Source: a virus
IMG/VR virus record: IMGVR_UViG_3300005524_000016
Span: 1 to 30,628 of that record
Direction: 5' to 3' (one strand)
Length of the DNA: 30,628 bases
Positions 7,439-30,628 of the stretch are shown piece by piece. Made by a program: the position numbers and the translations under genes. The notes below the pieces were generated by a model. It worked only from the letters and a program-made list of their open reading frames with translations, ran no database searches and was not told the DNA's origin. The first letter of the stretch is position 1. Every line of letters starts with the position of its first letter.

Positions 7439-9040
7439 TCAAACACCGAGGTACTTATTCGCCTGCTCGGCCAAAAGCTTGCGACGCTGGGCCAAAAACT
7501 CCTTATAGCGCGATACACGCCATAGATCGTGATTCAGCGGAATACACTGCTTCTCCAACTCAGATTCTGGGACGTTTAGCCGATCAAGATATGTGGCCGG
7601 TTCTTCGGTGGATACATTCAAATTCGTCCTTGCACTGAGCACCGCATAGTTCGCGAACGTATTTATGTCAGCGGGCCGAAGCTCCTTCCGCTTGTTCAGC
7701 AGAGCTCTTGGAAAGAAATGATGAACCTGAAGTGGCGCGCCATGCCCGATCACCGTCCCATCCAGCGGGCTGTCGGTATTTTGCCAGTCCTTCGCGCTAC
7801 AGTCCCGGAGCATCGAAAGGAACAACGACATGATGGGACCGCTCAAGCGGCCTGTCTCGAAATCGTCTGCGCGCAAACGTCGAAGGGAGCGTTTAGTGGC
7901 GGTCCATAGATGATTTACGGACGGCGCACTTTCAATTGATCGGAGAACCTTGTCGAGTTGCGTCTCGACCGATCCACTGAAGTATCCATGTACGGAAGCA
8001 AGAAGCAGCCATCTTCGCGCTAAACGCCTGTCTTCGATGGACCAGTTATTGCCGTGTGCGAGAACGACGACCAAGGGAATCAGGGAATTGAAAGATGGAA
8101 TAAGCGAAGCAGATGTCCATCGCACGGTGCCTGTAAGAAATTCGACAAGCTTGCCAATGGCGCGTTCAGTCCGCTCCCATGACTTCCTGATCTCGCTCGG
8201 CTTGGCTGTTTCCCAGAATTGCTCGGGGTCCGGAATCCGAAACCGGCCTGAATGTACCGCTAGTAAGCACTGGACAAGGAATGGCATTGTGAACCGGAAA
8301 TCCTGCCAACGGGTTTGCGCCTGACGGACCTCCTTCGAGACCAACCCAGGAACGTGGATCGCAAGTTCAGCGATGCTGAGATCGCTACGTCGGAGCTTTC
8401 GGCCGGTCGAGTTAAATCGAATAAAGAGCTCCGTAGCGAGTTTATAGTCGTCCGTTTCGAACTCAGTGACGCCGACCAAATAGTCCCGGATTCGGGTCAA
8501 GGCCGATATGTCTTGTCGAATAATTTCTTCGTGTTCGGGCTTGAACCGCTCGCTGGCTTTGATGGCGTTCAGCCGCTCGGTGAGACTGAAGTCCTCTGAG
8601 AGGACTTCCGCCACCGGGATGCGCCAAGGGTCATCTCGTTCGTTCTTGCCGCGCCAGTAAAATGTTTCGTCGCCGTCAGCCTCCCTCTGCGGCCAAACAT
8701 AGAACATCAACGGGTACTCTTCGTCTCCATCCCGAAGGTGGGCGAGAGCTGTCAATCGTTGTTGTCCGTCAAGCAAGTACCCGTAAAAGCCATCAAGGCG
8801 GACGCCGCGTTTGAGCCGCTTCTTATCAAATGCCTTCGCATCAACGGCGGTTGTGGCCTTCCAGACTAACATGTGCCCGATGGGTAATCCCCGGTACAGG
8901 GAATCGATCAGGAGTTTGATCGCCTTTCTGGTCCAGACGAAGTCTCGCTGTATCTCTGGAAGAACCAATTGCTGTCGATCCACCAGCTCAAGGAGCTTCC
9001 CAATGGATCTCGTGACATTGCTCACACTCGATGTTGGCAT
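7439..9040 (-). CDS. DUF262 / HNH-type (GmrSD-like) restriction protein
   Basis: This 533-aa leftward gene stands alone between head-tail genes of the opposite strand. The N-terminal DUF262 domain shows all its signatures: LVLPEIQRDFVW (25-36), a GLPIGHMLVWK segment, DGQQRLTAL (91-99) and LFIRFNSTGRKLRRSDL (205-221). The C-terminal part has VHHFFPRALLNKRK (439-452) and then NTFANYAVLSARTNLN, which is the DUF1524-like HNH nuclease pattern. In GmrSD this pair makes a nucleotide-dependent type IV endonuclease that attacks modified phage DNA; SspE is a related effector. The start at 9040 has AGGA six bases upstream. Base composition is visibly less GC-rich than the flanking phage genes, which suggests recent acquisition. 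A role in blocking other phages is inferred. Confidence 0.9.
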   Translation of the reverse strand: MPTSSVSNVTRSIGKLLELVDRQQLVLPEIQRDFVWTRKAIKLLIDSLYRGLPIGHMLVWKATTAVDAKAFDKKRLKRGVRLDGFYGYLLDGQQRLTALAHLRDGDEEYPLMFYVWPQREADGDETFYWRGKNERDDPWRIPVAEVLSEDFSLTERLNAIKASERFKPEHEEIIRQDISALTRIRDYLVGVTEFETDDYKLATELFIRFNSTGRKLRRSDLSIAELAIHVPGLVSKEVRQAQTRWQDFRFTMPFLVQCLLAVHSGRFRIPDPEQFWETAKPSEIRKSWERTERAIGKLVEFLTGTVRWTSASLIPSFNSLIPLVVVLAHGNNWSIEDRRLARRWLLLASVHGYFSGSVETQLDKVLRSIESAPSVNHLWTATKRSLRRLRADDFETGRLSGPIMSLFLSMLRDCSAKDWQNTDSPLDGTVIGHGAPLQVHHFFPRALLNKRKELRPADINTFANYAVLSARTNLNVSTEEPATYLDRLNVPESELEKQCIPLNHDLWRVSRYKEFLAQRRKLLAEQANKYLGV

Positions 9041-9262: not shown

Positions 9263-9904
9263 ATGCGCTTTAGCTTCAAGGCCGACGATCTTAGCGCCGT
9301 CCTCAAGCGCGCCTATGATGACGGCGAGCGCGCCGTTTCCGAAGCCATGAATGAGGTGCAAGCAGGCCTTCGGGACGAGCTTCGCGGCCAAGTGGTTTCC
9401 GCGGGAATGGGCCAGCGGCTCGCCAAGACTTGGCGCGGCAAGCGGTTCCCCGAAAGCGGTGCGAGCATCAATTCAGTGGCCTACGTCTGGTCGCGCGCTC
9501 CCGACATCGTGGACGCGTTCGAGCGCGGCGTTCCGATCGTCGCGAGGAACAGACGCTTCCTTGCGGTGCCGACGCGCGACGCGGGCGTGAGCCACACGAC
9601 GGTCAAGAACAAGCGGCTGACGCCCGCGATCTGGGAGGCCGAAACCGGCGTGAAGCTCAGGTTCGTTCCCCGCGGCGGGCACGCGCTGCTCGTGACCGAT
9701 GCCCACTACGCCCGCCAACCCGCGCGGTGGAGGCGCCGCAAGTCGTTCAAGCCGATCCGAACGCCTTTGACCGGCAGTCGTAAGGTGCTCGTGATCTTCG
9801 TCCTGGTCCCGATGGTCAATCCCGGCACGCGGCTCGATGTCGAAGGCGCCGGCAATCGCTGGGCCGATCGCGTCGCCAGCATCATCGCGTCTCATTGGAG
9901 ATAG
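9263..9904 (+). CDS. DUF6441 family phage protein (neck / tail completion region)
   Basis: This 213-aa protein starts MRFSFKADDLSAVLKRAYDD and contains GLRDELRGQVVSAGMGQRLAKTWRG, then PAIWEAETGVKLRFVPRGGHALLV and a basic ARQPARWRRRKSFKPIRTP stretch. I recognise it as the DUF6441 family, found at this place in Rhizobiales prophages and gene-transfer-agent relatives. By position it may be the equivalent of a gpZ-like or tail-completion protein that joins the tail tube to the neck. The ATG at 9263 is preferred to one further upstream because AAGGA lies six bases before it. It is separated from its expected upstream partner only by the DUF262 insertion. Confidence 0.8.
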   Translation: MRFSFKADDLSAVLKRAYDDGERAVSEAMNEVQAGLRDELRGQVVSAGMGQRLAKTWRGKRFPESGASINSVAYVWSRAPDIVDAFERGVPIVARNRRFLAVPTRDAGVSHTTVKNKRLTPAIWEAETGVKLRFVPRGGHALLVTDAHYARQPARWRRRKSFKPIRTPLTGSRKVLVIFVLVPMVNPGTRLDVEGAGNRWADRVASIIASHWR

Positions 9905-11650: not shown

Positions 11651-12001
11651 TCACGCCGCGCGGGCGGCGGCGAGCGCCGCAAGCGTGCCTTCGGGATCGC
11701 GCGCAACGAGGATCAAGAGCGATCGCGCCGCCGGATCGATCCCGTTGCGGCCTTGTTCCCAGTTCCGCAGCGTCGCGACGGGAATGCCGAGCGCGTCGGC
11801 GAATTGCTCTTGCGTCATGCCGAGGCGGCGCCGCAGGTTCTTGGGCGCGATCAGCATGTCGAGCGTCAGTTCAGGCGCCGTGTCCGGGTCTTCCGCGATC
11901 TGGCGGGCAATATCCTCGTCGGTCGTCGCCTCGATTTTGGCGCGGTCGATCGCGGGCTTCGTCGCCCGTATCTCGTCTAGCGCTTTGCGAACAATCGCCA
12001 C
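11651..12001 (-). CDS. BrnA-like antitoxin with helix-turn-helix domain
   Basis: This 116-aa leftward protein is the likely antitoxin for the overlapping BrnT. The start is a GTG at 12001, supported by AAGGAG eight bases upstream; reading further upstream runs back through the toxin in another frame. The first part has ATTDEDIARQIAEDPDTAPEL, which matches the N-terminal linker typical of BrnA antitoxins. Instead of the usual ribbon-helix-helix end it has an XRE-type helix-turn-helix, LRRRLGMTQEQFADALGIP and TLRNWEQGRNGID. It should neutralise BrnT and repress the operon by binding the palindromes upstream of brnT. It overlaps the toxin gene by 25 bases, so the two are probably co-translated, toxin first. 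Confidence 0.88.
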   Translation of the reverse strand: MAIVRKALDEIRATKPAIDRAKIEATTDEDIARQIAEDPDTAPELTLDMLIAPKNLRRRLGMTQEQFADALGIPVATLRNWEQGRNGIDPAARSLLILVARDPEGTLAALAAARAA

Positions 12002-12252
12002 GTCTCGCGCTCCTTTCGGTTTGCCGGCCGAGCCGAGATGATCCGGCGCACCCCGCTGCGGTCGGTGTAGACCACAACGAGCACCATGCCATCGACTTCG
12101 CCAATGGCGATGATGCGCTCCTCGCCGTAGTCGCGCCGCTCGTCGGGCGTGGTCTGAACCGGCGCCTCGAAGATGCGGGCGGCCGCGGCGAAATCCACCC
12201 CGCGCTCCCTTCGGGTCCACTCGCTCTTGGCTTCGTCCCACTCGAATTCCAT
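11977..12252 (-). CDS. brnT: BrnT family toxin (ribonuclease)
   Basis: This protein of 91 aa from the second ATG matches the BrnT family (DUF497), RelE-fold ribonucleases that block translation under stress. It shows the family opening MEFEWDEAK, a RGVDFAAAARIFEAP stretch, RRDYGEERIIAIGEVDGMVL, and the catalytic-region end RIISARPANRKERETW. An upstream in-frame ATG at 12258 would add two residues, but it lies inside the predicted -10 box, so the message probably begins at or near the ATG at 12252 without a leader. The toxin gene comes before the antitoxin, as in known brnTA operons. The pair sits leftward between tail genes, which suggests a moron that helps keep the prophage. Confidence 0.9.
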   Translation of the reverse strand: MEFEWDEAKSEWTRRERGVDFAAAARIFEAPVQTTPDERRDYGEERIIAIGEVDGMVLVVVYTDRSGVRRIISARPANRKERETWRLFAKR

Positions 12253-12256
12253 CGCC

Positions 12257-12284
12257 ATTCTACGCGAATCGCGTAGTCCGTCAA
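12257..12284 (-). promoter_or_regulatory. Predicted promoter of the brnT-antitoxin operon
   Basis: On the minus strand, TTGACG at 12284-12279 and TAGAAT at 12262-12257 are separated by 16 bases; each matches the sigma-70 consensus at five of six positions. The -10 box covers the first candidate ATG of brnT, so transcription would begin about 12250-12252, at the second ATG. One palindrome lies in the spacer and -10 box and another just upstream of the -35 box. Confidence 0.7.
12260..12276. promoter_or_regulatory. Operator palindrome 1 of brnT operon
   Basis: CTACGCG and CGCGTAG form a perfect seven-base inverted repeat around AAT. It overlaps the spacer and the -10 box, where a bound antitoxin would block RNA polymerase. 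It resembles the second palindrome, which also has a GCG-rich core and a three-base spacer. Confidence 0.65.
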
Positions 12285-12338: not shown

Positions 12339-12779
12339 ATGCTGAAGCTGCACCCGAATCGACCCGATCCCTATTGGCTCGATCTCCTTCCCGGCGTCCG
12401 GATCAAGGTCCGGCCGATCAGCGTCGCGGCGATCATCGGCGCACGGCAGGCCGCTGCAGAGGCGATGAAGACTCAGGACGGCCAAGAAATCTTCGTCGGC
12501 AGTGCGGCCTTCACGCGCAGCATCGCACGCTGGGGAATCACCGAATGGGAAGGCGTGGGCGACGCGGACGGCACGCCGCTCTCGCCGAGCCCGGAGAATA
12601 TCGATGCGCTGCTCGAACTCTGGCAGGCGTTCGATGCGATCGACCGGCTCTATATCGCGCCGGCGCTGATCCTGGCCGACGAAAAAAACGCATCCTCGCC
12701 CTCGCCGAATGGCATTTCGGCGGGGGCGAAGCCTACTGCGCCGCGTGCACGCAAACGTGCTCCGGCTGTCCGTACCTAG
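12339..12779 (+). CDS. Tail assembly chaperone, short form (gpG-like)
   Basis: This 146-aa protein is the zero-frame product of the chaperone gene. It begins MLKLHPNRPDPYWLDLLPGV and carries RIKVRPISVAAIIGARQAA, ending in a polar tail after the slippery site. Chaperones of this kind coat the tape measure while the tail tube is assembled around it. The gene stands between tail tube and tape measure, as G does in lambda. GGAGG at 12324-12328 lies ten bases before the ATG. After the shift site at 12683-12689 the zero frame runs about 30 residues to a TAG with a low-complexity composition, as expected when the biologically conserved sequence continues in the other frame. Confidence 0.85.
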   Translation: MLKLHPNRPDPYWLDLLPGVRIKVRPISVAAIIGARQAAAEAMKTQDGQEIFVGSAAFTRSIARWGITEWEGVGDADGTPLSPSPENIDALLELWQAFDAIDRLYIAPALILADEKNASSPSPNGISAGAKPTAPRARKRAPAVRT

Positions 12780-16728: not shown

Positions 16729-17615
16729 AGACGCTCGACGCCGGCCTCGCCGCGCATCTCGCCGGCGGGGTCACGACGCTTTGCCATTGCTGGCGCGTAG
16801 CGCGGAAGGACGGCGCGGTCCTCGGCTTCACCGACCATGACCGCGACGTCGTGATCGACGGCACAACCTACAAGGCAACGACCGGATTCACCGCGACCGC
16901 GATCGAGGATCAGCTCGGTCTGGCGGTCTCGAACCTCGATGTGGACGGCGCGCTTTCATCCGCGGCCATCGCCGAGGACGATCTCAATGCCGGCCTCTAT
17001 GACGATGCGTCCGTCATCATCATGCGCGTCAATTGGCAGGACGTGTCGCAGCGCGTCGTTCTCCGCTCGGGCTTCCTCGGCCAGGTCACGCGCGGCGAAG
17101 CGGCATTTTCGGCCGAGCTTCGCGGGCTCGCGGCGAAGCTCGACCAGAGCGCGGGCCGCGTCTTTCAGCGCACATGCGCCTGGGAGCTCGGCGATTCGCG
17201 CTGCCAGATCGATCTCGGCGCACCCGCCCACAACGGCAGCGGCACGGTCGCGAGCGTCATCAGCAATTTCGACTTCACGGCAAGCGGGATCGGCGCGTTC
17301 GCCTCCGGCATCTTCAGCCGCGGCAAGATCGTCTGGACGAGCGGAAACAATGCCGGCCTTGCGATCGAGGTGAAGGCGCATTCGCAGGGGACGCCGAATG
17401 CGCGGCTGTCGCTGTTCCTGCCCATGCCGCGCCCGATCCAGGCCGGCGACACGTTCTCGATCACCGCGGGATGCGACAAGCGGTTCGAGACCTGCCGCGA
17501 TCGGTTCGCGAACGTCGTCAATTTCGGAGGCTTCCCGCACATGCCCGGCAACGATTTTGCGCTGGGTTATGCCAAGCAGGGCGACAACAATGACGGGAAA
17601 TCTCTTGGTGGTTAG
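16725..17615 (+). CDS. DUF2163 family tail hub protein (GTA gp13-like)
   Basis: This 296-aa protein begins with an ATGA overlap and shows the DUF2163 pattern: HCWRVARKDGAVLGFTDHDR (21-40), TGFTATAIEDQLGL, and a C-terminal DRFANVVNFGGFPHMPGNDF (259-278). Four cysteines, C151, C160, C250 and C257, stand in CAWELGDSRC and CDKRFETC. In the R. capsulatus gene transfer agent the hub protein binds an iron-sulfur cluster through conserved cysteines, so the same is likely here. The trimeric hub closes the tube and links the distal tail ring to the host-specificity protein. The gene overlaps the following peptidase gene by 26 bases. Confidence 0.94.
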   Translation: MKTLDAGLAAHLAGGVTTLCHCWRVARKDGAVLGFTDHDRDVVIDGTTYKATTGFTATAIEDQLGLAVSNLDVDGALSSAAIAEDDLNAGLYDDASVIIMRVNWQDVSQRVVLRSGFLGQVTRGEAAFSAELRGLAAKLDQSAGRVFQRTCAWELGDSRCQIDLGAPAHNGSGTVASVISNFDFTASGIGAFASGIFSRGKIVWTSGNNAGLAIEVKAHSQGTPNARLSLFLPMPRPIQAGDTFSITAGCDKRFETCRDRFANVVNFGGFPHMPGNDFALGYAKQGDNNDGKSLGG

Positions 17616-18049: not shown

Positions 18050-20845
18050 ATGGCAACACTTCTGCTAACGGTCGGCGCATCGGTGCTGACCGCCGGCTCC
18101 GCTGCGTGGGTCACGACGCTCGCGACTGCCGCCGCGACCGTTGCCGGAAGCTATATCGACGCGCGCTTGTTCGGCCCCGGACCGCAAATGCTGGAGCAAG
18201 AAGGACCGCGGCTCGACAACCTTCAAGTCCAAGCCTCCACCGAAGGCGCGCCGATCCCCGAGATCGCCGGCCGCGTGAGGCTTTCCGGCCAGGTCATCTG
18301 GGCGACCAAATTCAGGGAAGTAGCGACGACCAAGACGCAAACAGTCGGAGGCGGAGGAGGAAAAGGCGGCGGCGGCGGAGGCGGGAGCACCGTTCAGACC
18401 ACGACCTACACCTACTATGCCAATTTCGCGGTGGGCTTAAGCGAAGGCGCGATCGACCGGATCGGCAGGATCTGGGCCGACGGCAAGCCGCTCGACATGA
18501 GCCGCGTGACCATGCGCGTGCACAAGGGCACCGCGAACCAGTCGCCGGACCCGCTGATCGAAGGCATCGAAGGGACCGGCAACGCACCCGCCTACCGCGG
18601 CACGGCCTATGTGGTTTTCGAGAACCTTGAGATCACGCAGTTCGGCAATCGCCTGCCGCAGCTCGCATTCGAGGTTTTCCGTCGCGTCTCGCCGTCCGAC
18701 GGCTCGGGGCTTGAGGATATCGTCCAGGCGGTGACGCTGATTCCCGGCGCCGGCGAACGCGTCTACGACACGATCGTCCATACCCGCGATCTCGGCGGCG
18801 GCGCGACCACGCCCGAGAACAAATTCGCGGGCCAGGACACGGCCGACTGGAACGTCGCCCTCGACGATCTCCAGGCTTCGATTCCAAACGCGACCACCGT
18901 GCTGCTCGTCGTCGGCTGGTTCGGCGACGATCTGCGGGCGGGCAACTGCACCATACGGCCGAAGATCGAGGTCTCGAACAAGAGCACGACGCCGAACGCC
19001 TGGAAGGTCCATACGCTGACCCGCGATGGCGCCTTGGTGGTGAGCACGGTTGACGGCAGGCCCGCCTACGGCGGCACGCCCTCGGACGACTCGGTGGTGC
19101 GTGCGATTCGCGACCTCAAGGCGCGCGGGTTCTCGGTCGTCTTCTATCCCTTTCTGTTCATGGACATCGCCCAAGGAAATGCCTTGCCCGATCCGTGGAC
19201 CGGCAATACCGGCCAGCCTGCCTACCCCTGGCGCGGGCGCATCACCTGCGATCCCGCTCCGGGCCGGCCCGGCACCGCGGATAAGACCGCAGCGGCCGGC
19301 ACGCAGATCGACGCGTTCTTCGGCACGGTCGCGCGTTCCGACATCACGGTTTCGGTGAACGGCAGCAGCAATACGGTCTCAACCTCCTATTCGGGGTTGA
19401 GCGAGTGGGGCTTCCGGCGCTTCGTCCTGCACTACGCCAGGCTCTGCGCTGCGGTGAACGCGATCGACGCCGGCGCTGTGGACGCGTTCCTGATCGGCTC
19501 GGAGCTCAAGGCCCTCACCACGGTCCGCGACAGCGCGACGAGCTACCCGGCGGTAACGAAGCTTAAGGTGCTTGCCGACGACGTGAAGACGATCCTGGGC
19601 TCCGGCGTGAAGGTCGGATACGCAGCGGATTGGTCAGAGTATGCCAACCACAATCCTGGCGACGGCACGGGCGATCTCTTCTTTCACCTCGATCCGCTCT
19701 GGGCCGACGGCAACATCGATTTCGTGGGCGTCGATCTCTACCTGCCCCTGTCCGACTGGCGCGACGGCAACGCCCATCTCGATGCGCTCGCCGGAGCCTC
19801 CTCGATCTACGACCTCGATTATCTGCGCTCCAACATCGAAGGCGGTGAATATTTCGACTGGCACTACGCTTCGCAAGCAGACCGCGACGCGCAGAACCGA
19901 TCGCCGATCACCGACGGCGCCTACGGCAAGCCGTGGGTGTTCCGCGCCAAGGATTTTCGCAACTGGTGGCTCAACCAGCACTTCAATCGGCCAGGCGGTG
20001 TCGAAAGCGGATCGCCCACGGCCTGGGTGCCGCAGTCGAAGCCGATCTGGTTCACCGAGTTCGGCATCCCCTCGGTGGACAAGGGGAGCAACCAGCCGAA
20101 CGTCTTCCATGATCCAAAGTCGTCCGAGAGCGCATTGCCCTACTATTCGCGCGGCACGCGCGACGACCTGATCCAGCGGCGCGGCATCGAGGCAATGGTC
20201 TCCTATTGGGCGGCCAACAGCCCGGTGTCCTCGGTCTATGGCGGGCCGATGATCGGGCGGCTCGCCGTCTGGACGTGGGACGCTCGGCCATACCCTGCTT
20301 GGCCCTCGCGGACGGACGCCTGGGGCGACGGCGATCTCTGGCCGCTCGGGCACTGGCTCAACGGCAAGATCGGGCTCGCCGATGTCGCGGCGCTCGTGGC
20401 CGAGCGCTGCAAGCGCGTCGGCTTCACCGCCTACGACGTGACCGCGCTTGCCGGCATCGTCGTCGGCTATGTGCGCGACCGACCGATGAGCCCGCGCGCC
20501 GAGATCGAGCTGCTCATGAACGCCTTCGCCTTCGACGCGGCGGAGAGCGAAGGCGTGATCCGTTTCGTGCCGCGAGGGCGCGCCGCCGTGGCCGAATTCG
20601 ACGCCGACGACTGCGTGCTCCCCGATCAGGGCGACATCCTGAAACTGACGCGCGCGCAGGAAACGGACCTACCGGACATCGTCTCGGTCACGTTCATCGA
20701 CGGTAGCGGGAACTACGAGCAGGGAACGGTCTCGGCGAGCCGCATCGCCGGCTATTCCGAGCGCAAGACGGACGTGACCGTGCCGCTCGTCATGGACGAA
20801 ATTCAGGCGCAGGCGATTGCCGACCGGGCGCTCGCCGAAGCCTAG
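18050..20845 (+). CDS. Tail host-specificity protein (GTA megatron-like), N-terminal fragment ended by amber codon
   Basis: The first 931 codons of a tail-tip protein related to gene transfer agent gp15. The N-terminus has a hydrophobic region and the usual glycine-rich loop at about 100-112, then YTYYANFAVGLSEGAIDRIG. A TIM-barrel-like domain follows, with YPWRGRITCDPAPGRPG near 392 and WFTEFGIPSVDKGSNQPN near 666. The frame stops at TAG (20843-20845) directly after QAIADRALAEA. The same frame continues at once with IGREAAKYALPPDRIDLDAG, which is conserved in relatives, so a tryptophan codon TGG has most likely become TAG. The truncated product would lack the last quarter, which helps to carry the tip fibre. 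TAG ends other genes here, so read-through is not expected. Confidence 0.9.
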   Translation: MATLLLTVGASVLTAGSAAWVTTLATAAATVAGSYIDARLFGPGPQMLEQEGPRLDNLQVQASTEGAPIPEIAGRVRLSGQVIWATKFREVATTKTQTVGGGGGKGGGGGGGSTVQTTTYTYYANFAVGLSEGAIDRIGRIWADGKPLDMSRVTMRVHKGTANQSPDPLIEGIEGTGNAPAYRGTAYVVFENLEITQFGNRLPQLAFEVFRRVSPSDGSGLEDIVQAVTLIPGAGERVYDTIVHTRDLGGGATTPENKFAGQDTADWNVALDDLQASIPNATTVLLVVGWFGDDLRAGNCTIRPKIEVSNKSTTPNAWKVHTLTRDGALVVSTVDGRPAYGGTPSDDSVVRAIRDLKARGFSVVFYPFLFMDIAQGNALPDPWTGNTGQPAYPWRGRITCDPAPGRPGTADKTAAAGTQIDAFFGTVARSDITVSVNGSSNTVSTSYSGLSEWGFRRFVLHYARLCAAVNAIDAGAVDAFLIGSELKALTTVRDSATSYPAVTKLKVLADDVKTILGSGVKVGYAADWSEYANHNPGDGTGDLFFHLDPLWADGNIDFVGVDLYLPLSDWRDGNAHLDALAGASSIYDLDYLRSNIEGGEYFDWHYASQADRDAQNRSPITDGAYGKPWVFRAKDFRNWWLNQHFNRPGGVESGSPTAWVPQSKPIWFTEFGIPSVDKGSNQPNVFHDPKSSESALPYYSRGTRDDLIQRRGIEAMVSYWAANSPVSSVYGGPMIGRLAVWTWDARPYPAWPSRTDAWGDGDLWPLGHWLNGKIGLADVAALVAERCKRVGFTAYDVTALAGIVVGYVRDRPMSPRAEIELLMNAFAFDAAESEGVIRFVPRGRAAVAEFDADDCVLPDQGDILKLTRAQETDLPDIVSVTFIDGSGNYEQGTVSASRIAGYSERKTDVTVPLVMDEIQAQAIADRALAEA

Positions 20846-22003
20846 ATCGGACGCGAGGCCGCAAAATACGCGCTGCCGCCCGATCGGATCGATCTCGATG
20901 CGGGCGATGTGATCAATCTCGTGATCGACGGCCGTCCGCGCGAGTTCCGCCTGACCCGAATCAACGACGCATGGTCGCGCGCGATGGAGGCGCAGCGCTG
21001 CGAAGGCGCGGTCTATGCGCCGCCGCTTCCGGGCCTGAAGCCGCCCGCTTTCGAGCCCCCGCCCGTCTATGGCCGCGCGATCCTCGAGCTGATGGATTTG
21101 CCCATGTTGCGCGACGACGACGTGGGCTTTGCGCCCTATGTCGGCGCCTCGGCGATGCCGTTTGTCGGCGTCACGCTCTTGGACAGCGCAACCGGCGTCG
21201 ATTACGCGCTCGATACCGTCCTCCCGGTGCGCGCCACGATCGGCGAAACCGTCTTCGACTTCTGGTCCGGCCCGACCGCCTACTTCGACATCGTCAACAC
21301 GCTGCGCGTGAAGCTCTATTCGGGCGAGCTTGCGAGCCTCGACGAGGCGACGATCCTCTCGGGCCGCGCCAACGCGCTCGCGATCAGGAACGCGGACGGC
21401 GATTGGGAAATCCTGCAATTCTGCAACGCCGCGCTCGTCGATGCCGGCGTTTACGATCTCACAAAGCTCCTGCGCGGCCGGCTCGGCACCGAGCATGCGA
21501 TGCGCAATCCGGTCGCCGCCGGCGCTCGAATCGTCGTTCTTGACGGCGTCATCGCCCAGATCCAGGCGGCGCTCGCCGAACGCGGCGTGACGCGGTTCTA
21601 CAAGTGGGGACCGTCGAGCCTCGATCCGTCCGATGTCGCCTGGCAGCAAGGCACGTTCACCGCGCGCTGCGTCGGACTGATGCCGTGGTCGCCGGTGCAT
21701 GTGGCCGGCGTCCGCAACGGCGCCGGCGATCTTGCGATCACATGGATTCGGCGCACCCGCTTCGGCGGCGACTGGGCCGACGGCGCCGACGTGCCGCTCA
21801 ACGAGGAAAGCGAGCGCTACGAGGTCGATATCCTCGACGGCGCCAACGTCGCCCGAACGATTGCGACCACATTTCCGGCCGCGACCTATTCCGCCGCGCA
21901 GCAGACGGCCAATTTCGGATCGCCGCAGCCGTCGATCGCCGTGCGGGTCTACCAGCTCTCGGCGACCGTCGGCCGCGGCCGGCCCGCTGCCGCCACGCTC
22001 TGA
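20846..22003 (+). pseudogene. C-terminal remnant of the tail host-specificity gene, after the amber codon
   Basis: This is the rest of the same reading frame, 385 codons from IGREAAKYALPP to the TGA at 22001-22003. It contains VINLVIDGRPREFRLTRI, a MINLV-type GTG at 20909, YGRAILELMDLPMLRDDDVG, a RGRLGTEHAMRNPV segment and, near the end, SERYEVDILDGANVARTI, all usual in the C-terminal third of gene transfer agent-like host-specificity proteins. No ribosome-binding site precedes the GTG at 20909, so independent translation is doubtful. Together with the upstream part it makes 1317 codons, close to the full length of the family. Apart from the one stop codon, no other damage is visible, which suggests a recent mutation. 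Confidence 0.85.
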
Positions 22004-24767: not shown

Positions 24768-24853
24768 TTCGGCGTGCCGAGGCCGCGATCGGCCCTGACC
24801 TGTGCAGTCTCGGAGATTCCTCAACGAATAGACGTTTACTGCCGGCGGAACTC

Positions 24854-24861
24854 TATATATT
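24854..24861 (+). promoter_or_regulatory. Possible -10 region upstream of the methyltransferase gene
   Basis: TATATATT stands out in a GC-rich setting about 30 bases before the methyltransferase start. TTTACT at 24835-24840 could be a poor -35 box at 15 bases distance. The promoter is weakly supported. Confidence 0.35.
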
Positions 24862-24890
24862 GTATGTTTAGCTGGGGAGTTGTGAGCTGC

Positions 24891-25967
24891 ATGAGCGATT
24901 GGGGGACTATGTACAGCGTCGTGATCGAGCCGGGGCCCAAGGCACGCCGATGGGCCTCCAGGTCGATTTATGAGACGGAGCTGGGCGCAGCGTTTTGTGG
25001 CGACTCTCTCAAAGTGCTGCGGAGCAAGCGCCTTCAGCAACACAAAAAGGAAGTTCAGCTGGTCTTCACCTCTCCGCCGTTTCCGCTCAACACCAAGAAG
25101 AAGTATGGGAACCTTCAAGGGGAGGAATACATCGAATGGTTCTCGCAGTTCGCGCCGCTGCTCCGGGATTTCGTCGCCCCTAATGGTTCCATCGTTGTGG
25201 AAATCGGCAACGCGTGGGAACCGGGTCGCCCGGTAATGTCCACGCTCGTACTTCGGGCGCTCCTTCGGTTCCTCGAAGCAGGTCGGCTCAATTTGTGTCA
25301 GGAGTTCATTTGGTACAACCCCGCTCGGTTACCTTCACCTGTGCAATGGGTGAACGTTGAGCGGATCAGGGTCAAGGATGCGTTTACACGCATTTGGTGG
25401 ATGTCGCCATCCGATCGTCCAAAAGCAGATAACCGGAGAGTCCTTCGTGAATATAGCGCGAGCATGAAGAAGCTGATTGAGACCGGCAAATACAATGCAG
25501 GTCCGCGGCCTTCTGAACATCACATTGGCAAGAGCAGTTTCAAGACAAACAACAACGGTGCGATTCCGCCAAATGTCCTCGACGCGGACGATGCGCCATC
25601 CCTAAGCACCTTGCTAAAGGGCACCAACACGCACTCCAACGATCAGTATCAGTTGTTTTGCCGAGATCGTGGCATTCCCTTGCATCCAGCGCGAATGCCT
25701 GCAGATCTCGTCGAATTCTTCATCCGATTCTTGTCGGACGAGGGAGACCTAGTACTTGATCCATTTGCCGGCAGCAATACGACCGGTGCGGTCGCTGAAA
25801 AACTTGGCCGGCGATGGATATCATGCGAGGCAAATTGGGAATATGCGTCTTCTTCGATCGCACGCTTCACGCCCGAGAAAATTACGGAAACCTGTGACGA
25901 CCTGCGAATTTCCGCGGTTCCCACGCGGAGCAGAAAACGCCTCGGGGCTACTTCCTCGTTCTCTTGA
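24891..25967 (+). CDS. DNA methyltransferase, beta-class, probably cytosine-N4-specific
   Basis: This 358-aa protein has the catalytic motif IV (TSPPFPL, about 60-66) before the AdoMet-binding motif I (LDPFAGSNTTG, about 289-299), which is the beta-class order. SPPF rather than DPPY favours methylation of cytosine N4. Between them lies the target-recognition region with WYNPARLPSPVQWVNVERIR (141-160), a conserved stretch of this family, and HPARMP (265-270), part of motif X. The start is uncertain: ATGs at 24864, 24891 and 24909 are all in frame; 24891 has GGGGAG eleven bases upstream. It is less GC-rich than the phage genes. It converges on the leftward ATPase operon and overlaps its last gene by 20 bases. 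Confidence 0.92.
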   Translation: MSDWGTMYSVVIEPGPKARRWASRSIYETELGAAFCGDSLKVLRSKRLQQHKKEVQLVFTSPPFPLNTKKKYGNLQGEEYIEWFSQFAPLLRDFVAPNGSIVVEIGNAWEPGRPVMSTLVLRALLRFLEAGRLNLCQEFIWYNPARLPSPVQWVNVERIRVKDAFTRIWWMSPSDRPKADNRRVLREYSASMKKLIETGKYNAGPRPSEHHIGKSSFKTNNNGAIPPNVLDADDAPSLSTLLKGTNTHSNDQYQLFCRDRGIPLHPARMPADLVEFFIRFLSDEGDLVLDPFAGSNTTGAVAEKLGRRWISCEANWEYASSSIARFTPEKITETCDDLRISAVPTRSRKRLGATSSFS

Positions 25968-26631
25968 TCGCCTCAAATTGATGCGAAAATCGTTTCTCGA
26001 TCGCTTCTAAAAACTCGCGAAGCTTGAGGAGACTTTCTTTTGAAATCGCTTCCTCGCCACCGGAGACGCCGCGTCTGAAGCTGTCTGATCCGGTCTCGTT
26101 CAGCCATGCGAGAGCGTTCTCTATTGCGGTTCGAGTTGCCTTTCGCCGATCCTCGACGTGCTGGGCATCGTTACTTGTTAGGCCAAGAAATGAAGCCGCT
26201 CCAAGCCACATACGTGGCTCGTTAGGATCACTGCAGTACTTCCTAAAAACGGGATGGCGATAAAGGGGCGCGACAGCGTCATAGATTGGCTGCGGCGATC
26301 GATGGGACTTCTCACCCTGGCCTTTCATACCACCGAGACGATCAGCCTCAGAACGACCTATATCGGTTAGGCGATAATGATTTGCACGCGTCTTTTCAAT
26401 CCACCCTCGTCTCAGGGGATTATCCTTCTTTGTGGTGCCCATAATTTCCATCATGACCCGCTTGTGGTCGGGATAGAGATCTTCATATCCCCGGCAACCG
26501 AAACGGTTCGGGTTGCGCTTCCAAGTCGAAACTGTGAGATCCCATTCGGTGAACTCCTTCATTCCGGCCTGATCGAGGTCACGAGCACCGAACAAAATCT
26601 CCTGAGCGGCGGTTAGCCGTTCATGCGGCAT
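25948..26631 (-). CDS. Uncharacterised protein with probable winged-helix domain, third gene of ATPase operon
   Basis: This 227-aa protein overlaps the ATPase gene end by 11 bases, so the two are co-translated. I do not recognise the family. The N-terminal half (about 1-105) reads as a winged helix: MPHERLTAAQEILFG, a helix with TEWDLTVSTWKRNPNRFGCR, then MMEIMGTTKKDNPLRRGWIE and NHYRLTDIGRSEADRL, which is the strand and helix pattern of wing and last helix. The C-terminal half is helical, with TAIENALAWLNETG and KLREFLEAIEKRFSHQFEAI. It shows no nuclease motif. The ATG at 26631 is used here; GTG and TTG starts lie up to 15 bases upstream. A DNA-binding or targeting subunit is a fair guess. 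Confidence 0.82.
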   Translation of the reverse strand: MPHERLTAAQEILFGARDLDQAGMKEFTEWDLTVSTWKRNPNRFGCRGYEDLYPDHKRVMMEIMGTTKKDNPLRRGWIEKTRANHYRLTDIGRSEADRLGGMKGQGEKSHRSPQPIYDAVAPLYRHPVFRKYCSDPNEPRMWLGAASFLGLTSNDAQHVEDRRKATRTAIENALAWLNETGSDSFRRGVSGGEEAISKESLLKLREFLEAIEKRFSHQFEAIKRTRK

Positions 26632-29065
26632 CTTGGACAACAGCACTCTCCGCTCTGCTCAACAGTTGATCGCTCAGATCCCAAGCCGCATCGATGAAAT
26701 CGGCGCATTCGATTTCTGCAAATGCGGCAAGCTGAATGAACTCGAACTCAGTTACGGTTCGTCCCCTCAAGGCCTGCCGGACATGCAGACGCTTGAGCAC
26801 GTCAAAGCACTTGAGCGCCACGAAATGCATAAAGTTCTTGGAAGCAATGCTTCCAACCCCGGACGGCCCGCCGCGACTTCGACGAACCCTCATCGATTCC
26901 TTGCTTCTAGGATTAATCCAAACAACGTTTGGGAATAGGGGGTCCTCGATGATGGTCGGCAGCTCCTCGCCACCGGGCAATGTCCGCTGCTCTTCGGGAA
27001 AATCCTCCATGCCGGGAGCTTGCTCGCCGCACAGAAGAATTTCCGGGATATCACTTCCGCGGGCACCCTCAGTGTCCGGGGCGGGCACCCGTTCCGAGCC
27101 GATCTGGATCACGGTGGCGCGTTGTTGGTGTGGGCCCGCACCAAATCTGACTCGAACGGTTGCCTGGCCCTCCTTGAAGCCAGCCGTGAAACGGCCGTGG
27201 CGCCCGATCAGCCCCATACCAGGTTCGTCGATCGCCCCGTCTATAAGAAGGTCATCTCTGGGACCATTCGGCGTCTGAAATGTGATCGCCAGTTTGACTC
27301 GCTGCCCTTGCAGAAGGACTTCCGTCGGCACATCGATAGTGACCTCGGTCGCAGCTACGATTTCGCAGTTGATCTTGTTTGAGAACACAGTGCCGTCGGC
27401 GGTCTCCAGCCAGATCTCACCGCGACCAGTAACATCTCCCGATATTCGGTCGCCTTCGACCAAGGACGCGATCGGTGCTGATGAACCAAGGCGAAGGTCG
27501 GTAGCTCTCACCGGCTTTGACGAACCGTCAGGTTGGCGCTCGATGCATTTGAAACGGAGCGGGACGGACGTGCCCTGCGCGAGTGACACGATCGTCCGGC
27601 CCGGTTCAAGAACAATCTCGTCAATTCGCTCTCCGAACTCGGACCCTCGCCGTTTCCTCTTTTTGCCCTCGCCATCTTTTCCAGTTGGTCCAGAGCCCTG
27701 TTCTTCATCATCGGCACCCTCGCCCGATGTGTCCGGATCAAGATAGTGTCGCATGAGGTCGCGTATACTTTGGAGTGCCGCTTTGGCTTGCTCACGGTCC
27801 CGTGGCCTGTTCTCCGCCATCATTGCGCGATGCAGGTCTTCCGCTAGCTCTTTGACCTTTTGGCGTGCCCATTCCATCAGCGCTCGAACAAGCGGGGTAT
27901 CGGACAAATGGATTCGCTCTGCCCCGGAGAGGTGCTCGCCAACCAGTGAAGCGCAACGGAGCTCCCCATAGATGAAGCTTACCGACGTGACGAGGACACC
28001 CAGCGAGTGCAGTGGCCAATTCGCGACGTTGTTGCGACTATTCCAGACCCGAATGACATTCCTCGCCTTCGTCTCTTCCGACATTTGGAGCTGTCGGGAA
28101 GAGGTGTGAAGCCTAAGAAATCTTGGCCCATCGAGCCCTGCCACCATGTCAACCGGATCGCCCGTCTCAGGATCGGGGAGGATATCGGGGATCTGATGTT
28201 CAATCGGTTTTTCAAAGCCGGGATACGGCTCCAGCGCAATCGGCTTGATTGGCGAGGCAGTTACGAGTTCTCCGTCCACGACAACCCATACTTCGCAAGT
28301 CTCAACGCTCATCGCAGTCTGACCATGACTCGCGATGATCTCCGGGACGACCTCCTCAGCCAACCTCTTCACCTTCCGCTTTTGGCGTCCCTCCCAATCA
28401 GCGACGCGGCTAAGGAGCACCCCTGTGAAGGCTTTTCGCTTCTGAAATGCAGCGAGGGCATTCGGAGGAAGGTTCTCTCTTGAAATGCCACACTGCGCTA
28501 GGAAGGCATCGAAGCACGCCTCGGTATCAGGTGCGTCTATTGCCTTCACAATCACGCCGTTCTCTCGGGCGAACCCTGGTTTGTACCGATCCGTGGGGCG
28601 GTTGTTCTTGAAGCCCATCCGGGTGCGCTTGCCTTCAAAGCAGGACTCAAGGAATGAGAATTCGGAAGCCCCGCGGACCATGAATGCCTTTCCGCCATTG
28701 CCATGGCCGGCCTCAATATCGTCAGAAAGCTCGCTTCGCCCCGCGGTTCGGCTCGACCACGTCGTCCAACCGTCGAAGTCGGCCAAACGTGCGCCGGCGA
28801 AATCAATCACGGCGAGCCTGCGGTCGTCCGTATCGGCGACGACCACGATCTGCCGCACGGTGCGATCCGTGATTCCGAGCCGAGAGTATTGGTCTTTCGC
28901 GTTCTTTATGAGCTCTGGAAGTCCATCCCTGACACCGCGAAAACGGCTGGTCAGCTGGTCCAGTGTGTGCGCTGCGTCCATTGGAATCTGGTCGGGAAAG
29001 AGAAAGTCCGTCGCGGCGCCAACGGGTTTAGAAGCTGGTCCAATCTTAGAGCTTGAAGCGTGCAT
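26621..29065 (-). CDS. GHKL (MutL/MORC-like) ATPase with Ig-like C-terminal region
   Basis: This 814-aa protein carries the GHKL ATPase motifs: N box ELIKNAKD (E51, N55), a motif I segment VIDFAGARL around D88-G91, and the glycine loop EAGHGNGGKAF (118-128). The order and spacing fit the MutL/MORC branch rather than a histidine kinase. A second S5-like part with the expected lysine region follows to about 440. A charged linker with KKRKRRG (468-474) leads to two beta-rich segments, about 480-570 and 575-655, the second with GLIGRHGRFTAGFKEGQATV, an Ig-like (Big) pattern. A helical end closes the protein. The start at 29065 has AAGGGA upstream. No nuclease domain is visible. Confidence 0.88.
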   Translation of the reverse strand: MHASSSKIGPASKPVGAATDFLFPDQIPMDAAHTLDQLTSRFRGVRDGLPELIKNAKDQYSRLGITDRTVRQIVVVADTDDRRLAVIDFAGARLADFDGWTTWSSRTAGRSELSDDIEAGHGNGGKAFMVRGASEFSFLESCFEGKRTRMGFKNNRPTDRYKPGFARENGVIVKAIDAPDTEACFDAFLAQCGISRENLPPNALAAFQKRKAFTGVLLSRVADWEGRQKRKVKRLAEEVVPEIIASHGQTAMSVETCEVWVVVDGELVTASPIKPIALEPYPGFEKPIEHQIPDILPDPETGDPVDMVAGLDGPRFLRLHTSSRQLQMSEETKARNVIRVWNSRNNVANWPLHSLGVLVTSVSFIYGELRCASLVGEHLSGAERIHLSDTPLVRALMEWARQKVKELAEDLHRAMMAENRPRDREQAKAALQSIRDLMRHYLDPDTSGEGADDEEQGSGPTGKDGEGKKRKRRGSEFGERIDEIVLEPGRTIVSLAQGTSVPLRFKCIERQPDGSSKPVRATDLRLGSSAPIASLVEGDRISGDVTGRGEIWLETADGTVFSNKINCEIVAATEVTIDVPTEVLLQGQRVKLAITFQTPNGPRDDLLIDGAIDEPGMGLIGRHGRFTAGFKEGQATVRVRFGAGPHQQRATVIQIGSERVPAPDTEGARGSDIPEILLCGEQAPGMEDFPEEQRTLPGGEELPTIIEDPLFPNVVWINPRSKESMRVRRSRGGPSGVGSIASKNFMHFVALKCFDVLKRLHVRQALRGRTVTEFEFIQLAAFAEIECADFIDAAWDLSDQLLSRAESAVVQDAA

Positions 29066-29300
29066 CGGATTTTCCCTTGGGCGATGCGAAGCGGTTCTCG
29101 ACCTCGTTGACGGCATCCTTCAGCGCTCTGATGATTTTACGGACTTCAGCGTCCTCAAACTCATAAATCTGTCGGTTTGAGAGATTGCCGATCCGGCTGA
29201 TCGCTTCGAGCGCCTTGTTGGTCCTGTTCTCGGCGAGCGTCCGAAACTTTTCGCGCTTGCTCGCCCCGGCCTTCGGCTGCGTCTTGGCTTCTGCGGTCAC
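29046..29300 (-). CDS. Small helical protein, first gene of ATPase operon
   Basis: This 84-aa protein starts at a GTG at 29300, with GAGGA five bases upstream, and overlaps the ATPase start by 20 bases. A TTG at 29312 is a less likely start. It is basic at the N-terminus and then helical: SKREKFRTLAENRTNKALEA and ISRIGNLSNRQIYEF, followed by EVRKIIRALKDAVNEVENRF. I have an impression of this NRTNKAL-IGNLSN pattern in small genes beside restriction-modification genes, but I cannot name a family. It has no enzyme motif; a structural or regulatory partner of the ATPase seems likely. Confidence 0.8.
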   Translation of the reverse strand: MTAEAKTQPKAGASKREKFRTLAENRTNKALEAISRIGNLSNRQIYEFEDAEVRKIIRALKDAVNEVENRFASPKGKSDARFKL

Positions 29301-29912: not shown

Positions 29913-30628
29913 ATGTCCGCTTCCAATTCGCAACGTCTGACCGACGCCATGGTCCGCAAGGCGCTTCCCGCTGCGCGCGGGTCGGCGCTGCTTTGGGACT
30001 CGAAAGTCAAGGGCTTCTGCCTTCGCGTTTCGCCGGGCGGCGGCAAGAGCTTCATGCTCGATTACCGCGCCGGCGGACGGCAACGGCGGATCACCATCGG
30101 CTCGTATCCCGATTGGTCCGTCGCCGCCGCGCGCGAAGCCGCAAAGGCGATGAAGCGCGAAGTCGATCTCGGCCGCGATCCCATGGGCGAACGGCATGAG
30201 GAGCGCGCCGCGCCGACCGTTGCCGACCTTTGGGAACGCTATCGCGTCGAGCATCTTCCGACGAAGGCGGCGCGGTCGCAGAAGGACGAGACGATGATGT
30301 GGGAGCAAATCGTGCTTCCGCGCTTCGGCAAGATGAAGGTGGCGGCGGTCGCGCACGAGGACATCGATGCGCTCCATCGCGACATCACCAACATCCGCGG
30401 CACGCCGATCCGCGCGAACCGGACGGTCGAGGTGCTGCGCAAAGCCTTCAACCTTTCGATCCGATGGAAGTGGCGCACCGACAATCCGGCCTCGGGCGTG
30501 CGGCGCAACCCGGAGGAGCGGCGTAACCGCTATCTCAACAAGGTCGAGATCGCGGCGCTTGCCCGGGCGCTTCAGGACCATTCCGAGCCGGTGTCGGCGA
30601 ACGCGATCAAGCTCCTCATGCTGACCGG
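29913..30628 (+). CDS. int: Tyrosine recombinase / integrase, N-terminal part (3' end outside window)
   Basis: The frame from the ATG at 29913 is open to the right edge, 238 codons. It begins MSASNSQRLTDAMVRKALPA and shows the DUF4102-type arm-binding domain: LLWDSKVKGFCLRVSPGGGK, SFMLDYRAGGRQRRITIGSY and DWSVAAAREAAKAMKREVDL, then DPMGERHEE. The core-binding SAM-like domain follows, with VADLWERYRVEHLPTKAARS and VEVLRKAFNLSIRWKW. The window ends at AIKLLMLTG, just where the first catalytic arginine is expected, so the R-H-R-Y residues are not seen. A P4-type integrase of this kind usually recombines at the 3' end of tRNA genes, which fits the tRNA-Met fragment beside it. GGGGGG lies upstream of the start. 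Confidence 0.93.
   Translation, partial: MSASNSQRLTDAMVRKALPAARGSALLWDSKVKGFCLRVSPGGGKSFMLDYRAGGRQRRITIGSYPDWSVAAAREAAKAMKREVDLGRDPMGERHEERAAPTVADLWERYRVEHLPTKAARSQKDETMMWEQIVLPRFGKMKVAAVAHEDIDALHRDITNIRGTPIRANRTVEVLRKAFNLSIRWKWRTDNPASGVRRNPEERRNRYLNKVEIAALARALQDHSEPVSANAIKLLMLT

Follow-up and report, generated by a model that had tools for sequence, protein, structure and literature searches.

A baseplate gene of a temperate siphophage, carried on a viral record 30,628 bases long, is interrupted by a single in-frame TAG codon. We consider it likely that a recent nonsense substitution, from a Trp codon to TAG, broke this gene, known as megatron, and left a tail-defective temperate siphophage or prophage of Alphaproteobacteria. 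The whole record, referred to below as the window, comprises the structural half of the phage, with genes for the large terminase, a lambda-type portal, a fused protease-capsid protein, the tail tube and the tape measure, together with DUF2460, hub, NlpC/P60 peptidase, megatron and DUF2793 genes. Its closest relatives are IMG/VR contigs and genomes of Hyphomicrobiales and other Alphaproteobacteria.

The interrupted frame and its domains

The frame starts with the ATG at 18050 and ends with the TGA at 22001-22003 on the plus strand. It holds 1317 codons ahead of this final stop, and the TAG at codon 932 (20843-20845) is its sole interruption. The earlier note had described a frame continuous over 1317 codons around a single TAG, which is borne out by the homologues: these align over all 1317 residues without a stop, and a frame left open by chance is ruled out on the same grounds. 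The GC contents of the three codon positions (0.63/0.51/0.84 upstream of the TAG and 0.68/0.51/0.85 downstream) indicate that the coding signal spans the stop. The features of the locus are the following.

18050..22003, plus strand: megatron (baseplate multidomain protein) gene, matched by NF048004, PF13547 + PF13550 + PF23666, PHROG 4271 and RcGTA 6tba_8A
20843..20845, plus strand: the in-frame TAG, standing at codon 932, where 61 of 62 homologous places have Trp (TGG)
18050..20845, plus strand: predicted truncated product of 931 aa, with the iris, adhesin-like and peripheral (TIM barrel) domains and most of the central domain, from the RcGTA alignment
20846..22003, plus strand: orphaned 3' part of 385 aa, covering the last stretch of the central domain and the whole of the fibre-binding domain, from PF23666, the end of PF13550 and RcGTA residues 921-1299
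20909..20911, plus strand: GTG, first possible in-frame restart codon downstream of the TAG, without a Shine-Dalgarno-like sequence upstream

By its profile matches, the interrupted gene codes for megatron, a baseplate protein of the GTA type (NCBIfam NF048004) and a relative of Rcc01698 of RcGTA. The earlier note had labelled it a tail host-specificity gene; megatron baseplate protein is a better name than simply host-specificity protein. The NF048004 GTA_megatron profile is matched from position 1 to 913 before the TAG, with a score of 1350.8 bits for this part (cut-off 800), and from 917 to 1299 of its 1299 positions after it. Three Pfam domains, PF13547, PF13550 and PF23666, are found on the frame, which also matches PHROG 4271. 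The TAG splits PF13550, which breaks off at profile position 122 before the stop and resumes at position 125 after it. Because NF048004 and PF13550 each match on both sides of the TAG, two neighbouring genes are rejected. Chain 6tba_8A of RcGTA likewise aligns with both halves, residues 1-918 before the TAG and 921-1299 after it. The NF048004 equivalog model is matched over its length, but the frame is not uninterrupted, and the window gene is a broken copy of the GTA-type megatron family rather than an intact member.

Two characterized systems serve as references. The megatron of the Rhodobacter capsulatus GTA (Rcc01698, g15; PDB 6tba, 6teh) is homologous to the window gene along its whole length, and the gene order of the window, DUF2460 - hub (BR0599) - NlpC/P60 peptidase - megatron, is as expected. 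Unlike RcGTA, the window has one stop codon in its megatron gene, and it represents a phage that carries an integrase as well as cargo genes. The megatron of roseophage vB_DshS-R4C (PDB 8gtc) is homologous on both sides of the window TAG and is undivided, whereas that of the window is interrupted.

Codon 932 among relatives

The position of codon 932 was read in 62 homologous places, a number that includes some genes fetched twice: TGG (Trp) stands in 61 of them and GCC (Ala) in one, while a stop is found in none. Among the 23 first-round loci spanning the codon, 22 carry TGG and one GCC. This alignment agrees with the guess made in the earlier note of a change from TGG to TAG and supports Trp as the ancestral residue. 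Close relatives (70-85% identity) that contain the whole gene all have one undivided megatron frame. The situation that would have spoken against a broken gene, relatives with two separate genes, is thus absent, and a natural split gene is rejected. The locus combines a sense codon in relatives with a stop here, and homology and constraint are kept on both sides, as is characteristic of a nonsense allele; no homologue shows, at the position of codon 932, the stop that programmed readthrough or a split gene would call for.

Some relatives vary in other ways. The megatron homologue of related locus L012 (6185-11146) has two in-frame extra segments of about 450-540 bases in the TIM-barrel region, and that of L023 (10001-14332) has one of about 400-500 bases in the same region. 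The genomes of many relatives carry more than one megatron gene; two full ones, 81% identical to each other and about 49 kb apart, are present in the IMG/VR record of 92,497 bases that contains L002 (G006), an arrangement that points to a tandem pair of related prophages or to a joined contig.

Lone stops were also sought in a wider set of homologues from 397 genomes of one bacterial order. Among the 150 homologues listed, four carry a single in-frame stop, each elsewhere (query positions 290, 722, 973 and 1044) and none in common with the window. Since these positions are not shared, lone stops in megatron are sporadic, though not rare, and a recurrent stop position is rejected; those four stops may be errors too. 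In-frame stops in bacterial genes are reported to last only briefly, on a scale comparable to polymorphism, and to be over-represented among mobilome genes (PMC7918605). The window resembles the sporadic stops described by Belinky et al. 2021 (PMC7918605) from genes of bacteria and phages in having a lone stop in an otherwise constrained mobilome gene, whereas their stops are common to relatives and that of the window occurs in one record only. As to the cause of the change, the closest relatives read CCTGG at the TAG site, which matches a methylation hotspot of the CCWGG type, as in Dcm; beyond this sequence match the idea finds no support. The window contains 67 CCWGG sites against 49 expected, hence no depletion, and its methyltransferase is of the N6/N4 type.

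Competing explanations and the age of the stop

TAG serves as a normal stop in the window, as the earlier note had held from the genes ending at 9902, 12777 and 16132, to which a fourth case can now be added (17613-17615); most close relatives likewise end several of these genes in TAG. Altogether, four structural genes of the window end in TAG, one of them at 9902-9904 and the other three as follows.

12777..12779, plus strand: TAG ending the tail assembly chaperone frame; TAG also in L002, L005 and L008
16132..16134, plus strand: TAG ending the tape measure gene, with a gap of 3 bases to the following ATG; TAG also in L002, L003, L005 and L008
17613..17615, plus strand: TAG ending the hub (BR0599/Gp84) gene; TAG also in L002, L003 and L008

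Reassignment or recoding of TAG is rejected, as the codon ends several genes here and in relatives and just one in-frame TAG was found. Of five related host genomes, four have an RF1 (prfA) match that exceeds the curated cut-off; the weaker match of the fifth, which falls below it, may reflect a related release factor or an incomplete assembly. A search for tRNA genes in the window found none, nor did a search for a CUA tRNA in 25 related loci.

The orphaned 3' part is under purifying selection, with dN/dS values of 0.165-0.259; downstream of the TAG, the ratio is 0.183 between the window and L002, 0.165 between the window and L003, and 0.193 between L002 and L003. At invariant columns, defined as those without variation in nine other close sequences, changes private to the window amount to 11/494 before the TAG and 4/157 after it (Fisher p 0.77). 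Full neutrality over the whole branch would be expected to change about 74 of the 157 downstream columns. The time without constraint is accordingly at most about 6% of the window's branch, a crude upper bound obtained by assigning half of the pairwise dS to that branch. Since the downstream constraint resembles that of relatives and there is no excess of private changes, the TAG must be young, false or without effect.

A false TAG, absent from the phage itself, is the main rival. It would stem from a single-base error in consensus or assembly, or from a minority variant that became fixed when the consensus of the metagenome contig was built, and we regard it as rather unlikely. One wrong base would look identical to a very young mutation, and the gene does differ by a single base, being intact and under normal constraint elsewhere. 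The remaining recognised structural genes of the window are all open, so that a second sign of decay is lacking, which counts against a decaying prophage as well. The searches made found no second contig of the same phage that could confirm the TAG: none of the viral contigs searched matched the site exactly when any base was allowed at the variable position, and a DNA search of annotated phages with the 1.2 kb surrounding the TAG gave no match either. The surrounding sequence, however, is clean, without frameshift or homopolymer, and the single stops elsewhere in four of the 150 listed homologues make real nonsense alleles plausible.

A TAG without effect would be read through by a suppressor tRNA or by leaky termination, giving some full-length megatron and a functional phage. 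The 3' part is indeed constrained as in relatives, and readthrough of in-frame stops has been argued to be common in bacteria (PMC7918605), but the same constraint is equally expected of a stop that is very young or false. The stop occurs in no relative and is therefore not a conserved feature, TAG works as a terminator in the same operon, and neither the window nor the related loci supplied a suitable tRNA; we hold readthrough to be improbable. The dependence on a suppressor envisaged in the earlier note is accordingly not borne out. A more elaborate form, in which the lineage keeps the TAG, a suppressing host reads through it and short and full-length baseplate proteins together tune tail assembly, appears very improbable. 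We give hardly any credence to two present-day genes, the C-terminal fibre-binding part being made from a restart after the TAG and assembling with the truncated part. A 364-aa frame from the GTG at 20909 does stay open, but a Shine-Dalgarno-like sequence is absent before this GTG and the next starts, the break lies inside one folded domain and not at a linker, and the gene is undivided in all relatives checked. A nonsense substitution that is recent or still segregating remains the best reading.

Predicted effect and genomic setting

The domains of the RcGTA megatron comprise the iris (1-46), an adhesin-like domain (47-229), a peripheral domain (230-744), a central domain (745-984), with a part in anchoring the baseplate on the tail, and a fibre-binding domain (985-1304) (PMC7296036). 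On the RcGTA protein, the TAG corresponds to about residue 919, which belongs to the central domain and precedes the fibre-binding domain. After a single recent change from Trp to TAG, translation would break off inside the central domain, at residue 931, leaving a product without the end of this domain and without any of the fibre-binding domain. By analogy with the RcGTA structure, this genome copy would not give rise to a functional baseplate, unless the protein came from another megatron copy in the cell; such a copy may exist, because many relatives' genomes carry more than one. Until the gene decayed or the allele disappeared, the prophage would persist as a lysogen or the allele would segregate at low frequency. 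The undivided gene of relatives, the ancestral Trp, the use of TAG as a normal stop and the want of a convincing restart site together make a tail-defective phage likely. The earlier note had proposed that the phage makes no working tails or needs a suppressor: the former part stands as the likely outcome, on the strength of the RcGTA structure, and the latter is unsupported.

Other genes of the window are of interest in their own right. An integrase gene (29913-30628, plus strand) runs off the window end, and a tRNA-Met that lies near the right end of L002 (18644-18720) and of L003 (19391-19467) may serve this group of phages as attachment site. Between the head-tail connector and DUF6441 genes, a GmrSD_N/DUF262 gene (PF03235; PADLOC HEC-05, PDC-M55C) occupies 7439-9040 on the minus strand; because its two neighbours adjoin in L020 and L023, it is an inserted candidate defence gene. 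In the tail module, between the tube and chaperone genes, lies a BrnT-type toxin gene (PF04365, 4.2e-25; 11651-12258, minus strand), overlapped by a frame resembling a helix-turn-helix antitoxin, and BrnT homologues are also found in L003 and L023. A Type II-like N6/N4 DNA methyltransferase (24774-25967, plus strand) stands next to an 831-aa protein (26621-29116, minus strand), which gave no family match and in which GHKL-ATPase-like motifs (ELIKNAKDQ, GHGNGG) can be recognised by eye; the two, encoded close to the integrase, may form an uncharacterised pair with a role in restriction or defence.

The window TAG looks like a nonsense allele of the ordinary kind in a known gene, or like an artefact there, and not like a new way of reading genes, and it leaves knowledge of phage tails and of the genetic code unchanged. 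If the stop is real, it illustrates cleanly how the decay of a prophage begins, by a nonsense change in a probably essential tail gene at a stage when the remaining recognised structural genes have stayed intact, and a phage contig that passes as intact may thus be defective.
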